A stretch of 39,464 bases of DNA from an uncultured Bacteroidia bacterium (lineage in GTDB: Bacteria > Bacteroidota > Bacteroidia > Bacteroidales > F082): NCBI GenBank assembly GCA_902770835.1, contig CACXUM010000025.1:1-39464 (forward strand). Direction: 5' to 3'. The position numbers and the translations under genes were made by a program. Positions 11,451 through 18,582 of this stretch are shown in pieces. Each line of letters starts with the position of its first letter. Position 1 is the stretch's first letter. The notes under the pieces are model-generated. The model did no database searches. It was not told the DNA's origin and saw only the letters and a list, made by a program, of their open reading frames with translations.

Positions 11451-11454
<4 letters not shown>
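9295..11454 (+). CDS. ftsI: Septal peptidoglycan transpeptidase (PBP3/FtsI) with PASTA domain
   Basis: The 719-aa product is a class B penicillin-binding protein that cross-links septal peptidoglycan. It has one N-terminal transmembrane helix (about residues 12-33), a dimerisation/pedestal region, and a transpeptidase domain. The active-site motifs are intact: SVFK with Ser305, SSN at 363-365, and KTGT at 520-523. The C terminus holds one PASTA domain (VPNVVGMDITDAVYLLENMG and on), as in many Bacteroidetes FtsI proteins. It overlaps both the ftsL-like gene and murE by 4 nt, so translation is coupled. Partner of FtsW, encoded downstream. Confidence 0.96.
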
Positions 11455-12943
<1,489 letters not shown>

Positions 12944-12944
<1 letters not shown>

Positions 12945-14221
12945 TGTTATACTATCTGTTCAATTATCTGCAAAAAGTCAACTTCCCGGGCGCACGGGTG
13001 TTCAACTATGTCACCTTCCGCGCTGCGGTAGCCATCATTCTTGCCCTCGTCATTTCGGTGTGGTTCGGCAACTGGTTCATCAAGATGCTGAAACGCAAGA
13101 AAATCATAGAAACCCAACGCGACGAGGCCACCGACCCCTACAACACCAAGAAAGTGGGCGTGCCCACTATGGGCGGCGTCATCATCATCGCGGCCATACT
13201 GATTCCCGTGCTGTTGGTCGGGAAGCTGCATAGCGTCTACACCCTTTTAATGATAGCTACCACCTTGATTCTCGGACTTTTAGGCTTCGCCGACGACTAC
13301 ATCAAGACCTTCAAGAAGAACAAGGACGGACTGAAACCGAAAATCAAGTTGGGCGGACAAATCTTGCTCGGCCTTATCGTCGGACTCACCTTGCGTTTCA
13401 ATCCTGCCGTGCAAATCAATGAAACGGTGCAGGTGAAAATCGAGGACAACAAGGAAATCGTGGTGAAAAGTCCCGACGTGAAATCAACACGCACGACCAT
13501 CCCATTCCTGAAGAACCACAACCTCAACTACGCCGACTTGTTCAAATGGGCCGGTCCGCGCTGGATGTATAATCTCGCGTGGATATTTCTCGTGCTGCTC
13601 ACCGTGTTCATCGTGGCCGCCGTCAGCAATGGTTCCAACCTCAACGACGGCATGGACGGCATGGCCTCCGGCAACTCCGCCATCATTGGCCTGACTTTGC
13701 TGATATTGGCCTACATCTCCAGTAATGCAGTCACAGCGAGTTACCTTAATGTTATGTATATCCCTGGAAGCGAAGAAGTTGTCGTTTTCATGGCCGCATT
13801 CGTCGGTGCCCTCATTGGTTTCCTTTGGTTCAACTCCTACCCCGCCCAAATCTTCATGGGCGACACGGGCAGCCTCACCATCGGCGGCATCATTGCGGTT
13901 TCGGCCATCATCATCCACAAGGAACTGCTGCTGCCCTTGCTCTGCGGTGTGTTCCTCTTCGAAATCCTTTCCGACTTGGACGTGAAGCGTTTCGTCAAGA
14001 CGGGCAAGAAGCACCGCATTTGGAAAACGGCTCCATTGCACGACCATTTCCGCATGAGTTACAGCAAGTTCAAAGAAAGATGGCCCAACTCGACCGTCAC
14101 CTTCAAAGGCCACGGCGAAGGCCACAATACCGTCCACCATGAGGTGAAAATCACCATCCGCTTCTGGATTGTGACCATCCTTTTGGCGGCGTTCACATTG
14201 ATAACTTTCAAAATCAGATAA
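12944..14221 (+). CDS. mraY: Phospho-N-acetylmuramoyl-pentapeptide transferase
   Basis: MraY transfers phospho-MurNAc-pentapeptide to undecaprenyl phosphate, giving lipid I at the inner face of the cytoplasmic membrane. The product (425 aa) is polytopic with about ten hydrophobic segments. Diagnostic motifs are TKKVGVPTMGGV, FADDYIKTFKKNKDGLKPK, the catalytic NLNDGMDGMASG and GDTGSLTIGG. The extra loop between the early and middle segments (about residues 148-190, charged) is usual for Bacteroidetes MraY. Its ATG shares a base with the murE stop, and the MurD-like ORF starts 3 nt after its TAA. Confidence 0.97.
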
Positions 14222-14224
14222 AAA

Positions 14225-14791
14225 ATGACTTACATCGAAGAATTGACCAACACGAAGCAGAAGCAGCGCAACTCGATGGTTGCGGGCATATCGTCTAAAA
14301 TCTTGCAAATCAGAAAAGAAAGCATCAAGCAAAGCCTGAGCGACCTCGACACCATTGAGCACAGGCAAGACCTTGTTGCCACCATCGACGGCGTGATGTA
14401 TTACGACGACTCGAGAGCCGAAACCGTGAACGCCACTTGGTTCACTTTCGAGAACATCGTGCGCCCCGTGGTGTGGATTGCAGGAGGCTACGACCGCGAC
14501 ACCGACTTCAAGGACCTGAAGCATGTGGCCAAGAAGAAAGTCAAGGCCCTGATTTGCATTGGGAAATACAACGCCAACCTGAAAAACGCCTTCCAACGCG
14601 ACATCAAGGACATCTACGAAGTGAAAGACTTGGAGGAAGCCGTCGACACGGCCTCGTTTTTGGCCAACGAAGACGACATTGTGCTGTTTTCGCCCGCCTG
14701 CAAGTCGGACAAGGAAGACGAAACCTACATTGAGCGTGGCAACTTGTTCAAGGCAACCGTAAAGCATTTGGAAAATGAACATTGTCAATAG
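14225..14791 (+). CDS. Shortened MurD-like protein (C-terminal domain only)
   Basis: The product (188 aa) corresponds only to the end of the central domain and the C-terminal domain of MurD (UDP-MurNAc-L-Ala:D-Glu ligase, usually about 450 aa). The UDP-binding domain and the ATP P-loop domain are absent. Matches to ordinary MurD are NSMVAGISSKIL for NSxAAGIxAxxL, SDLDTIEHR for SDFxGVEHR, VVWIAGGYDRD for xxWIAGGxDKG, and LFSPAC followed by ERGNLFK. Several residues important for catalysis differ: the GxHN motif is lost, NDSKATN reads DDSRAET, and the GGxDK lysine is Arg. The frame is open and its codon use matches its neighbours. It starts 3 nt after mraY and overlaps ftsW by 17 nt, so it does not look like random decay. 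Ligase activity is unlikely; a structural or regulatory role is inference. Confidence 0.8.
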   Translation: MTYIEELTNTKQKQRNSMVAGISSKILQIRKESIKQSLSDLDTIEHRQDLVATIDGVMYYDDSRAETVNATWFTFENIVRPVVWIAGGYDRDTDFKDLKHVAKKKVKALICIGKYNANLKNAFQRDIKDIYEVKDLEEAVDTASFLANEDDIVLFSPACKSDKEDETYIERGNLFKATVKHLENEHCQ

Positions 14792-16061
14792 GATATTGAA
14801 AGGCGACAAAGTCATCTGGATTGTCGCGCTGCTGTTGGGCATCATTTCGCTCATCGTGGTCTACAGCGCGACCAGTGCCTTGGCCGTTTCCAAATACTCA
14901 GGCAGCACGGGCACAGTGCTGATGAAGCATTTGGGGATGCTCGTCTTTGGCTTCCTTATGATGTTTGCCGCCTCCAAAATCAACTACAAGCACTACGCGA
15001 AAGCCGCCCTGCTGCTGATGATTCCGTGCTTGGCGCTGCTGCTTTACACTCTCGCCTTCGGCCAAAATCTCAACAGCGCAAATCGCTCCATCAATGTAGG
15101 CGGGTTCTCTTTCCAGCCGAGCGAAATGGCGAAAATCATCCTCATCACCTATTTGGCCCGCCAATTGGTGATGATGGGCGACACCAAGGACAATTTCAAG
15201 GACTTCTTGGTCAAGTTGGCTTTGCCCATCTTGGCCACCGCCGGCCTGATTTTCTCCGAAAACCTCTCAACCGCCCTGATTTTGGTGACGGTCTGCATGG
15301 TGCTGCTGTTCATCGGCAGGGTGAAATTTCTCCACCTGCTTGCCCTCGTGGGTCTTTGCGTCGTTGGCATGGGATTCTATCTTGCCTTGGATGCCGTCAA
15401 GACCAGCATCGACAACAAGCACCGGCTGAAAGAACACGAGCAAGCCCTGACGATTGGCGCGAAACAAGGCGAATACAAGGCCAAGCAAAACCGTATTATG
15501 ACATGGTCGAACCGCCTGAAATCGATGGGCGAGGACAAGGGCGAAATCAACCGCTTCGACGACAAGCACCTGCAACGCACATACGCCGACATTGCCGTGG
15601 CATCAGGCTCGGTGTTCGGCAAAGGTCCCGGTAAGAGCGAGCAGCGCAACTTCCTGCCCCACCCCTACTCCGACTTCATCTATGCCATCATCATCGAGGA
15701 ATACGGGCTGTTGGGCGGCATCATCGTGCTGATGCTGTATGTCATTCTGTTCACGCGCGTCATCCGCATCGTGGGCAAACGCCCGCTCACCTTCGGCTCG
15801 TTGATGGCCTTCGGATTGGGCTTTTTGGTCATCATGCAAGGAATGGTCAACATGGGCGTCAGCATCGGACTGTTGCCCGTCACGGGCCAACCATTGCCCT
15901 TCGTCAGCATGGGCGGCACCTCATTGATGGCCACGGGACTCATTTTGGGCATGATTCTGAGCGTCACTTGCAGCATGGACGAAAGCATCAGCAAAGAACA
16001 AGAAATACAAGCAATTACAGAAATATCTGAAAATGAAAGAGAACCTGAAAGTCGTGATTAG
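14775..16061 (+). CDS. ftsW: Septal peptidoglycan glycosyltransferase FtsW (SEDS family)
   Basis: FtsW polymerises lipid II into septal glycan strands together with FtsI. The product (428 aa) has about ten transmembrane segments. SEDS hallmarks are ANRSINVGGFSFQPSEMAKI in the first half, GKGPGKSEQRNFLPHPYSDFIYAIIIEEYG around the large periplasmic loop, and LPVTGQPLPFVSMGGTSL near the end. The long charged insertion between them (about residues 210-265) is normal in this phylum. It overlaps the MurD-like ORF upstream and murG downstream (29 nt), so all three are tightly coupled. Confidence 0.96.
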   Translation: MNIVNRILKGDKVIWIVALLLGIISLIVVYSATSALAVSKYSGSTGTVLMKHLGMLVFGFLMMFAASKINYKHYAKAALLLMIPCLALLLYTLAFGQNLNSANRSINVGGFSFQPSEMAKIILITYLARQLVMMGDTKDNFKDFLVKLALPILATAGLIFSENLSTALILVTVCMVLLFIGRVKFLHLLALVGLCVVGMGFYLALDAVKTSIDNKHRLKEHEQALTIGAKQGEYKAKQNRIMTWSNRLKSMGEDKGEINRFDDKHLQRTYADIAVASGSVFGKGPGKSEQRNFLPHPYSDFIYAIIIEEYGLLGGIIVLMLYVILFTRVIRIVGKRPLTFGSLMAFGLGFLVIMQGMVNMGVSIGLLPVTGQPLPFVSMGGTSLMATGLILGMILSVTCSMDESISKEQEIQAITEISENEREPESRD

Positions 16062-17139
16062 TGGCGGCGGCACGGGCGGCCACATCTTTCCCGCCATCGC
16101 CATCGCCGATGCCTTGAAGCGGAGATTCCCCGAGGCCGACATCCTCTTTATTGGTGCCAAAGGCCGTATGGAGATGGAGCGCGTGCCGAAGGCTGGCTAC
16201 CCGATTAAAGGCCTATGGATCAGCGGCTTCACCAAGGACATCCGCTCACTCGCGCTGCCTGTCAAACTGATGGACAGCATCAACCGCGCCATCGCCATCC
16301 TGAAACGCTTCAAGCCCGATGTGGTGATTGGCGTGGGCGGCTTTGCCAGCGGACCTACTTTGATGGCTGCCAACTACTTGCGCATCCCCACGGTCATTCA
16401 GGAGCAGAACTCCTATCCGGGCAAGACCAACCGCAATGTGGGCAAGAAAGCCAAGGCCATCTGCGTGGCATACGACCACTTGGACCAATGGTTCCCTGCC
16501 GAAAAGATACACTTCACGGGCAATCCGCTACGGGCCAACATCGTCCTCAACGGCACCCGCGAAGAAGCTGCCGAATACTTCCATCTCGACCCGAACAAAC
16601 CTGTTGCGCTGTTGGTGGGCGGCAGCCAAGGTGCCTTGGGCATCAACAAGGGCATCAGCGCACAATTGTCCGCATTCAAGGACAGCGACCTGCAACTCAT
16701 CTGGCAGACGGGAAAGACCTATATCACTCAGGCACAGGAGGAAGTGAACCGTTTGGGCTTGCAAGACCAAGTGAAGCCCACCATCTTCATCGACCGCATG
16801 GACTTGGCCTACGGCTTGGCCGACATGGTCATTTCGCGTGCCGGTGCCATGTCGATTTCGGAATTGGCCTTGGTGCAAAAGCCCGTCATTTTCGTGCCGT
16901 TGCCCACCGCCGCCGAAGACCATCAAACAAAGAACGCCCAGCAACTCGTCAACGCCGAAGCCGCCCTCATGGTGCGCAACGCCGACACGGAGAAAGAACT
17001 CGTCCCGACGTTGTTCCGCCTCAAGGACGACCGCGAATTGCAGGCCAAACTCAGCGCGAACATCGGCAAATTTGCCCGGCCTAATGCCGCTGATGATATA
17101 GTTAAGGTGATAGTTGAGAGTTTAGAGTTTAGAGATTAG
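16033..17139 (+). CDS. murG: Lipid II-forming GlcNAc transferase MurG
   Basis: MurG transfers GlcNAc from UDP-GlcNAc to lipid I on the inner membrane surface. The product (368 aa) has the GT28 two-domain fold: SGGGTGGHIFPAIAIADAL at the N terminus for lipid I, GVGGFASGP, QEQNSYPGKTNR, then LLVGGSQGALGIN and SRAGAMSISELALVQKPVIFVPLPTAAEDHQTKNA for the UDP-sugar. The last seven residues (ESLEFRD) and the TAG stop are encoded by a heptanucleotide tract that continues past the gene, so its natural C terminus may have been replaced. The next dcw gene follows after 99 nt, the widest gap in the operon. Confidence 0.96.
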   Translation: MKENLKVVISGGGTGGHIFPAIAIADALKRRFPEADILFIGAKGRMEMERVPKAGYPIKGLWISGFTKDIRSLALPVKLMDSINRAIAILKRFKPDVVIGVGGFASGPTLMAANYLRIPTVIQEQNSYPGKTNRNVGKKAKAICVAYDHLDQWFPAEKIHFTGNPLRANIVLNGTREEAAEYFHLDPNKPVALLVGGSQGALGINKGISAQLSAFKDSDLQLIWQTGKTYITQAQEEVNRLGLQDQVKPTIFIDRMDLAYGLADMVISRAGAMSISELALVQKPVIFVPLPTAAEDHQTKNAQQLVNAEAALMVRNADTEKELVPTLFRLKDDRELQAKLSANIGKFARPNAADDIVKVIVESLEFRD

Positions 17140-17238: not shown

Positions 17239-18582
17239 ATGACCAACGGAGAAGGACATACGATTTATATGTTAGGCATCGGCGGCATAGGCATGAGCGC
17301 CTTGGCCCGATACTACCAAAGCATGGGTTACGCCATTGCCGGCTACGACCGCACCAAGTCGCGGCTGACCTTTCAATTGGAAAAGGAAGGCATGGCCATC
17401 CATTACGAAGACCGTCCCGAATTGTTGCCCGAATCCATCGACATGGTCATCTACACGCCCGCCGTGCCTCACGACCTCAAGGAATTTGAGGCCTTGCGCC
17501 AACGCGAACTGCCGATTCTGAAACGCTCAGAAGCCTTGGGCAAAATCTCGAAAGACCACTTCACCATCGCCGTTTCCGGCACCCACGGCAAGACCACGAC
17601 CACGGCCATGATTGCCCACATCCTCAACCACAGCCGCCTCAACACCACAGCTTTCATCGGTGGAATCGCCAAAAACTTCGACAGCAATTTGCTCTTGGGC
17701 AAACCCAAAGACAGCATCCTCGTGGTCGAGGCCGATGAGTTCGACCGCTCCTTCTTGCAACTCCACCCCGACGTCAGCATCATCGGCTCCATCGATGCCG
17801 ACCATTTGGACATCTACGGCGACAAGGAGCATCTCATTGAGAGTTTCAACGACTTCGCGAAACTCACCAAGCGCAATGTCATCGTCAGGGAAGGTCTTGA
17901 GGTAGAGGCTTGGAACAAAATCACTTACGGTTTCGGCGACGACTGCAAATACCAAATCATTTTGGGGAACAGCGGCAGCGGCTACACCATGTTCTACATC
18001 AAGGGCGAAGGTCAGGACAAGTTCAAGATCATCATGCCCCTCGCCGGCATCCACAATGTGCTGAATGCCACCGCCGCCTTCATTGCCGCACGGCGCATCG
18101 GTGTGTCGCGCAATGCCATCGCCGAGGCACTCCACACCTTCATGGGCGTGAAGCGTCGCTTCGATGTTCGTATCAACACCGAAAAATATTGCTACATTGA
18201 CGATTACGCCCACCATCCCGAGGAAATCCGCTCGTGCCTGCAAGCCATCAGGGACTTCTATCCCAACCGTCGGCTCACCCTCGTTTTCCAGCCCCACCTC
18301 TACAGCCGCACTCGCGACTTCATGGACGAATTTGCAGAAGTGCTGGCCACCGCCGACGAACTGATTCTCTTGGACATCTATGCCGCGAGGGAAGAACCCA
18401 TCGAGGGTGTGTCGTCGCAAGTCCTGTTGGACAAGATACAAATGCCTGACAAGAAACTCGTCGCCAAGACCCAACTCATCAAACTGATTGACAGCGAGAA
18501 ACCTGAACTTTTGGTGACGATGGGCGCGGGCGACATCGACCGATATGTTGAACTTTTCGAAGAACTGATAAAGTCATGGTAA
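17239..18582 (+). CDS. murC: UDP-N-acetylmuramate:L-alanine ligase
   Basis: MurC adds L-alanine to UDP-MurNAc, the first stem-peptide step. The product (447 aa) shows the N-terminal UDP-binding YMLGIGGIGMSALARYY, the ATP loop GTHGKTTT at about residues 114-121, VEADEFDRSFLQL, SIDADHLDIYGD, and the C-terminal DDYAHHPEEI. All are intact, and the length fits the family. Its ATG at 17239 is the only in-frame start giving the conserved N terminus; an ATG at 17231 stops after three codons. It overlaps ftsQ by 7 nt. Confidence 0.97.
   Translation: MTNGEGHTIYMLGIGGIGMSALARYYQSMGYAIAGYDRTKSRLTFQLEKEGMAIHYEDRPELLPESIDMVIYTPAVPHDLKEFEALRQRELPILKRSEALGKISKDHFTIAVSGTHGKTTTTAMIAHILNHSRLNTTAFIGGIAKNFDSNLLLGKPKDSILVVEADEFDRSFLQLHPDVSIIGSIDADHLDIYGDKEHLIESFNDFAKLTKRNVIVREGLEVEAWNKITYGFGDDCKYQIILGNSGSGYTMFYIKGEGQDKFKIIMPLAGIHNVLNATAAFIAARRIGVSRNAIAEALHTFMGVKRRFDVRINTEKYCYIDDYAHHPEEIRSCLQAIRDFYPNRRLTLVFQPHLYSRTRDFMDEFAEVLATADELILLDIYAAREEPIEGVSSQVLLDKIQMPDKKLVAKTQLIKLIDSEKPELLVTMGAGDIDRYVELFEELIKSW

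Follow-up and report, generated by a model that had tools for sequence, protein, structure and literature searches.

A stand-alone C-terminal domain of MurD in the dcw cluster of Bacteroidales carrying a MurL/MurD2-type gene pair

In the draft genome of an uncultured Bacteroidia bacterium, the murD position of the dcw cluster is occupied by a short gene, here called murDc, which encodes only the C-terminal domain of the ligase; the window, i.e. the whole stretch of DNA analysed, comprises 39,464 nt of contig CACXUM010000025.1. Across a large group of gut-type bacteria, another route seems to have taken the place of the dcw MurD, and judging from the genes the stand-alone tail has apparently been kept many times over after this replacement, which suggests a second, non-enzymatic job for the retained part. 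We consider it probable that murDc is what remains of the dcw MurD and that it is functional without being catalytic. Work on MurD, a familiar target for antibacterials, has treated it as an enzyme. The lone domain amounts to a natural experiment: another pathway has apparently assumed the enzyme role while one domain was kept, which separates catalysis from a second function and indicates which part of the protein carries it.

The ORF starts with ATG, was confirmed with a length of 188 aa, begins 3 nt after the mraY stop codon and overlaps the start of ftsW by 17 nt (Table 1). In profile searches, rsmH, murE, mraY, murG, murC, ftsA and ftsZ of the cluster scored above their curated cut-offs, while an FtsI-type penicillin-binding protein and ftsW were best matches below the cut-off. 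Against the MurD model TIGR01087, murDc obtained 130.4 bits, below the curated cut-off of 211.95, and the match is confined to positions 271–440 of 441; the N-terminal UDP-binding and the central P-loop ATPase domains are absent. The Mur_ligase_C profile PF02875 is covered completely (1–127 of 127) with 43.3 bits, above the gathering cut-off of 28.4. Hence, murDc shares with the MurD ligase the fold of the C-terminal domain, the position between mraY and ftsW and an orthologous sequence, but it differs by the missing N-terminal and central domains with the P-loop, by the loss of GxHN and most amino-acid-binding letters, and by a score below the family cut-off. It shares 32–47% identity with the full-length dcw MurDs found in other families vs. 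23–36% with the second MurDs described below. Judged by position and sequence, murDc is an orthologue of the dcw MurD.

Table 1. Position of murDc, its dcw neighbours and segments in the window, and of putative MurL-MurD2 genes on other contigs
Feature	Position	Strand	Basis or remark
murDc, stand-alone MurD C-terminal (glutamate-ligase) domain, 188 aa	14225..14791	+	profile match
murE	11451..12944	+	TIGR01085 and NF001126, over cut-off
mraY, upstream neighbour	12944..14221	+	TIGR00445, 248.6 bits, over cut-off
ftsW, downstream neighbour, 17 nt overlap with murDc	14775..16061	+	TIGR02614 best match, 243.8 bits, below cut-off of 337.5
murG	16033..17139	+	TIGR01133, over cut-off
murC	17239..18582	+	TIGR01082, over cut-off
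murDc residues 1–17, poorly predicted N-terminal segment	14225..14275	+	replaces M-T-L-E-E-L-A-L-Q-G-x-H-N of full-length MurD, HN lost
murDc residues 18–39, conserved helix	14276..14341	+	just ahead of C-domain core
DDSRAET	14405..14425	+	former NDSKATN motif, Lys not kept
GGYDRDTDF	14483..14509	+	former GGxDKGNDY motif, degraded
SPACKSDKEDETYIERG	14690..14740	+	former SPACASFDLFxNYEDRG motif, degraded
MurL-MurD2 overlapping pair	L001:162-2772		own genome, contig C2
MurL-MurD2 single ORF of 910 codons	L035:31-2763		relative

A sequence-only reading of this stretch had described an isolated C-terminal part of MurD, tightly coupled in the murD slot, with an altered active site and a possibly non-catalytic role, and this description holds: slot, 3-nt gap and 17-nt overlap were confirmed, only the C-terminal part is left, and the anatomy fits a non-catalytic protein. 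The term paralogue used there has to be replaced by orthologue. All changes named there were present in the alignment (GxHN lost, NDSKATN to DDSRAET, GGxDK to GGYDR), and SPACASFDLF to SPACKSDKEDE was found in addition. Likewise, the proposed alignment of the murDc ATG with a Met just ahead of GxHN was borne out, as 58 of the 61 aligned full-length dcw MurDs contain this Met. Since it also occurs outside the order (judged from plus-strand loci), structural constraints may account for its conservation; possibly, translation could already be initiated at this internal site in full-length murD.

Residue conservation differs strongly along the protein. Among 50 related sequences, 38 columns are invariant, including I22, I29, R30, I34 and K35 of the helix formed by residues 18–39. 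We take this helix to belong to the central domain of MurD, and its persistence after loss of that domain suggests a binding surface. In 37 aligned stand-alone sequences from different families, the HN of GxHN is always missing, even where the other motifs are complete. In contrast, D62 (window numbering; the second Asp of NDS), presumably the ribose-contacting D317 of MurD, is unchanged in all 37, while W84, I85, V106, the SP of SPAC and F175 are almost always and H46 is mostly retained. The motifs are complete or nearly so in families f6 and f40 and heavily decayed in f1, f2 and f80; the division into young and old stand-alone families was drawn after seeing the motifs and is descriptive, and the D62 count is independent of it. 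In full-length dcw MurDs, the active-site letters of the C-domain are near-invariant, irrespective of whether the genome carries MurL.

Of 36 genomes of the genus, 33 contained the stand-alone ORF. A full-length murD at this place in all relatives, which would have pointed to an assembly error or a one-off pseudogene, is thus not observed within the genus; in G002, G003 and G006 (62–72% complete) it was not found, and neither was mraY. A scan of public genomes yielded 54 loci, of which 51 from Bacteroidales or Bacteroidia, originating from several projects and overlapping with the genus set, carry a stand-alone ORF of 178–190 aa between mraY and ftsW; the other three are full-length MurDs in records named as other groups. 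Many of the 51 records are named from ruminant samples. The frame, which had looked maintained from codon use, is under purifying selection, with a median dN/dS of 0.161 for murDc vs. 0.072 for mraY and 0.122 for ftsW. These values were calculated by the Nei-Gojobori method with our own script from 52 sequences (251 pairs at least 70% identical), using the 132 pairs, not independent of each other, for which synonymous divergence was usable in each of the three genes; the poorly aligned ftsW of L114 (0.72 identity) was kept in the ftsW median. Four murDc copies with identical proteins differ by 3–5 synonymous and no nonsynonymous changes. An assembly deletion or one-off pseudogene, conceivable for a draft assembly in 76 contigs, is thereby ruled out for practical purposes, since the same structure recurs in the genus and in the public loci and the ORF is selected.

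Another explanation would be that the ORF is kept solely as DNA or as a translated stretch for expression of ftsW by translational coupling, with an idle protein. The overlap of 17 nt with ftsW, which is similar in many close relatives, and the short gaps elsewhere would be in line with this. We nevertheless regard it as very unlikely, because the amino acids are constrained (dN/dS 0.16 and the invariant columns mentioned above), a short leader would suffice instead of a folded domain of 180 residues, and the distance to ftsW differs between families, with values of −17 to +289 nt.

The own genome (3.26 Mb, 85.8% complete) was searched for a full-length MurD, and one above the cut-off was found on another contig (C2:67255-68508, 319 bits). 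Directly upstream lies a MurL homologue, the two genes overlapping; it matches NF041275 with an E-value of 1.8e-80 and 270.7 bits. Since this is far below the cut-off of 700, which is set for Xanthomonadales, MurL activity is treated here as putative. According to the accessible part of PMC8788868, MurD2 of Xanthomonas oryzae takes L-Glu and MurL then epimerises the product, the specificity for L-Glu being set by E197 and R358 of MurD2, which correspond to D182 and K348 of Escherichia coli MurD. The second MurD of the own genome contains FEEHLDHF and GGFDRG, and an E before the conserved His together with GGxDR was present in 15 of 15 second MurDs checked; these residues match the E197 and R358 positions. 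MurL was detected in 32 of the 36 genus genomes and MurI (glutamate racemase) in none, i.e. neither in the own genome nor in its 35 relatives. Because MurD2 overlaps a MurL homologue and bears the specificity residues and MurI was not found, the lineage most likely adds L-Glu by MurD2, followed by epimerisation by MurL. The earlier suggestion that D-Glu is added by an enzyme encoded elsewhere was thus right about the full-length ligase on another contig and probably wrong about D-Glu. The pair suggests why the dcw ligase could be lost.

The pair resembles the MurL/MurD2 system of X. oryzae (XOO_1319/XOO_1320), as far as it is described in the available parts of PMC8788868 and PMC5808125, in the overlap of the MurL homologue with a MurD carrying the E and R residues and in the absence of a detected MurI. 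It differs in that the old dcw murD is here often cut to its C-domain, that MurL-MurD2 fusions occur and that the MurL match of the own genome is below the Xanthomonadales cut-off. One such fusion is the single ORF of a relative listed in Table 1, and long frames common to MurL and MurD2 matches in further genomes of f1, f80 and f107 point to more fusions.

The other matches to the MurD model in the own genome are the second MurD, murC, murE, murF and a murF-alr fusion, and no lone N-terminal MurD half is among them. This bears on the idea of a split MurD whose second half, murDc, works in trans, for which the complete or nearly complete C-domain motifs of the stand-alone forms in f6 and f40 could be quoted. 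With every match accounted for, it is rejected for the own genome, and given also the loss of the Glu-side motifs in the murDc of the window, it is extremely improbable overall. Two MurF proteins are encoded on other contigs of the own genome, a single one (L004:1258-2583) and a fusion with alanine racemase (L006:1159-3693).

To place these genes in a broader context, 295 genomes sampled evenly from the order were analysed. MurL homologues were detected in 97 of them (E up to 1e-20), none above the Xanthomonadales cut-off, and in none of 14 named control genomes. This distribution is wider than in the reviews, insofar as their accessible text goes: one calls the MurL route limited to relatively few genera (PMC8788868), the other lists Gamma- and Alphaproteobacteria and Actinobacteria (PMC5808125), and Bacteroidota are not named as carriers in the accessible text of either. 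For the search of the dcw locus, 80 of the 96 MurL-positive genomes remaining without the own genome were used, after omitting three of the same genus and 13 of 70–88% completeness; the MurL-negative set consisted of the first 80 of 173 genomes of the order. A stand-alone C-domain was present in 30 of 80 MurL-positive genomes, representing 17 families, vs. 0 of 80 MurL-negative genomes (Fisher p 6e-11, species not being independent). MurI exceeded its cut-off in 0 of 80 vs. 74 of 80 genomes, and 16 of the MurL-positive genomes gave weak MurI matches. Among 138 genomes sampled across the phylum, with matches in 136, the stand-alone form occurred in the own genome only; a short piece in G344 sits at a contig edge.

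Of the 80 MurL-positive genomes, 46 retain a full-length dcw MurD whose C-domain motifs are intact or almost so (e.g. at L183, L145 and L161), including G142, whose frame of 267 is open at the contig start, and 44 of the 46 have a second match to the C-domain profile. The full-length gene is kept there although MurI does not exceed the cut-off, so the MurL/MurD2 swap does not force truncation, and MurD may still act in these genomes. Outside the 46, G195 has a full-length dcw MurD cut by the contig end, and no dcw murD was found in three of the 80, namely G055, G164 (mraY not found either) and G112. In G112, mraY (L244) stands beside ORFs which by eye look unlike dcw genes.

In the first sample of 60 genomes, the 18 MurL-negative ones outside the genus comprised 16 with full-length murD, G052 (70% complete) without a find, and G050 (98% complete) with a stand-alone C-domain at L080:3549-4061 and no detected MurL, MurI or MurD over the cut-off. 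G023 (97% complete) and G016 (77%) contain the short ORF, and neither MurL nor a second MurD was found in them, possibly due to assembly gaps. Together with the 46 full-length MurL-positive genomes, these exceptions would allow for MurD having a function in the new route. Among the MurL-negative genomes, a frame of 272 in G087 was considered as stand-alone and discarded, since a contig break splits the gene, the N-terminal part of murD lying behind mraY where another contig ends. Although MurL-negative, G087 additionally contains a fragment of a second MurD, located at the edge of a contig.

The near confinement of stand-alone forms to MurL-positive genomes would also be expected if murDc were a regulatory partner of the new route, binding MurD2, MurL or a nucleotide-bound Mur ligase and tuning its activity. 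The invariant D62 and the mostly retained H46 fit this, and H46-R47 should by alignment correspond to H301-R302 in E. coli MurD; these are hinge residues, and R302 is in contact with ADP according to the accessible part of PMC4816537. This explanation appears unlikely to us in view of the 46 MurL-positive genomes with full-length dcw MurD and no stand-alone form, of G050, and of the location of murDc in the dcw cluster and of murL-murD2 on a separate contig in the own genome.

The number of truncations was assessed from gene starts, gaps and trees, all trees being quick searches with starred branches less reliable than those from careful searches. Eight families contain both short and full-length forms (f4, f6, f13, f27, f35, f50, f74 and f95). 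A tree of mraY and ftsW built from 97 loci requires no fewer than 13 changes to explain the short state, eight of them forced by starred branches, and contains 16 all-short clades if a lost half-gene cannot return; a second tree under a simpler model gave 16 changes. A single clade of short loci was rejected on mraY+ftsW (AU p 5.7e-112, G050 left out).

These data also have to be weighed against few truncations, after which homologous recombination in the mraY–ftsW interval would have carried the short murD allele from family to family. The C-domain gene tree, which rests on a short sequence and is poorly resolved with long branches meeting, does not decide between one and many truncations and does not reject a single short clade (AU p 0.42, two longest rows left out), and the short genes of f4, f6, f27, f35 and f95 stand apart from the full-length genes of their own families, so that spread by local recombination is possible. 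In addition, the stand-alone form starts at or near the Met of the segment M-T-L-E-E-L-A-L-Q-G-x-H-N in most families. Against such a spread, the short gene of f50 groups with the full-length genes of its own family (SH-aLRT 99), as does that of f13 (89), the gap between mraY stop and stand-alone start varies (mostly 1–125 nt, 246 nt in G253), the loss of motifs ranges from almost none to nearly all, and the mraY+ftsW tree contradicts it. We judge this course of events improbable, to about the same degree as the regulatory partner, and favour repeated truncation with retention of the tail.

The following course is proposed for murDc as a non-catalytic remnant. Judging from gene content, a lineage with MurL and MurD2 and no detected MurI would have come to incorporate L-Glu by MurD2 with subsequent epimerisation by MurL. 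In many such lineages, about 265 codons for the UDP-binding and ATPase parts are missing from the dcw murD, which mostly starts near the old internal Met. Within the group of the window, the remainder is under purifying selection while catalytic and glutamate-binding letters have decayed. Finally, the C-domain and the preceding helix would hold a second function independent of ligation, as suggested by conservation of the protein during decay of the catalytic letters. Some non-catalytic role of the C-domain is in our opinion very probable.

For the nature of this role, we tentatively propose docking or scaffolding, with slightly less than even confidence, i.e. a protein contact in the membrane-proximal precursor and divisome assembly (MurG, MraY, FtsW or MurE); full-length MurD in relatives would provide the same contact. 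The scaffold or regulator suggested by the sequence-only reading would accordingly be plausible. According to the accessible part of PMC3605390, a mycobacterial complementation assay showed binding of Mur synthetases to FtsW, FtsQ and FtsZ and no binding among the synthetases themselves, the latter counting against docking to MurE. MurD, MurE and MurF of Thermotoga maritima bind MurG and MreB, as cited in the consulted part of PMC6420597. A regulator of Acinetobacter baumannii binds MurD via residues 53–354 according to the available text of PMC12208494; as these lie mostly outside the C-domain, this contact is probably not the one kept in murDc. A broader view would see the C-domain of canonical MurD, in Bacteroidales and maybe beyond, as a moonlighting module whose non-catalytic role is essential or under strong selection and has been exposed repeatedly by the MurL/MurD2 replacement; we regard the chances of this view as even.

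Other Mur ligase folds that are bound to partners or do not act as ligases are MurT in GatD/MurT and the plant MurE-like subunit of the plastid polymerase, both of which keep more than the C-domain. The likeness would lie in the association of a Mur ligase fold with a partner protein, whereas murDc is the C-domain alone, is bacterial and stands at the original locus. The literature searched, which covered few subscription papers, contained no report of a stand-alone MurD C-domain.
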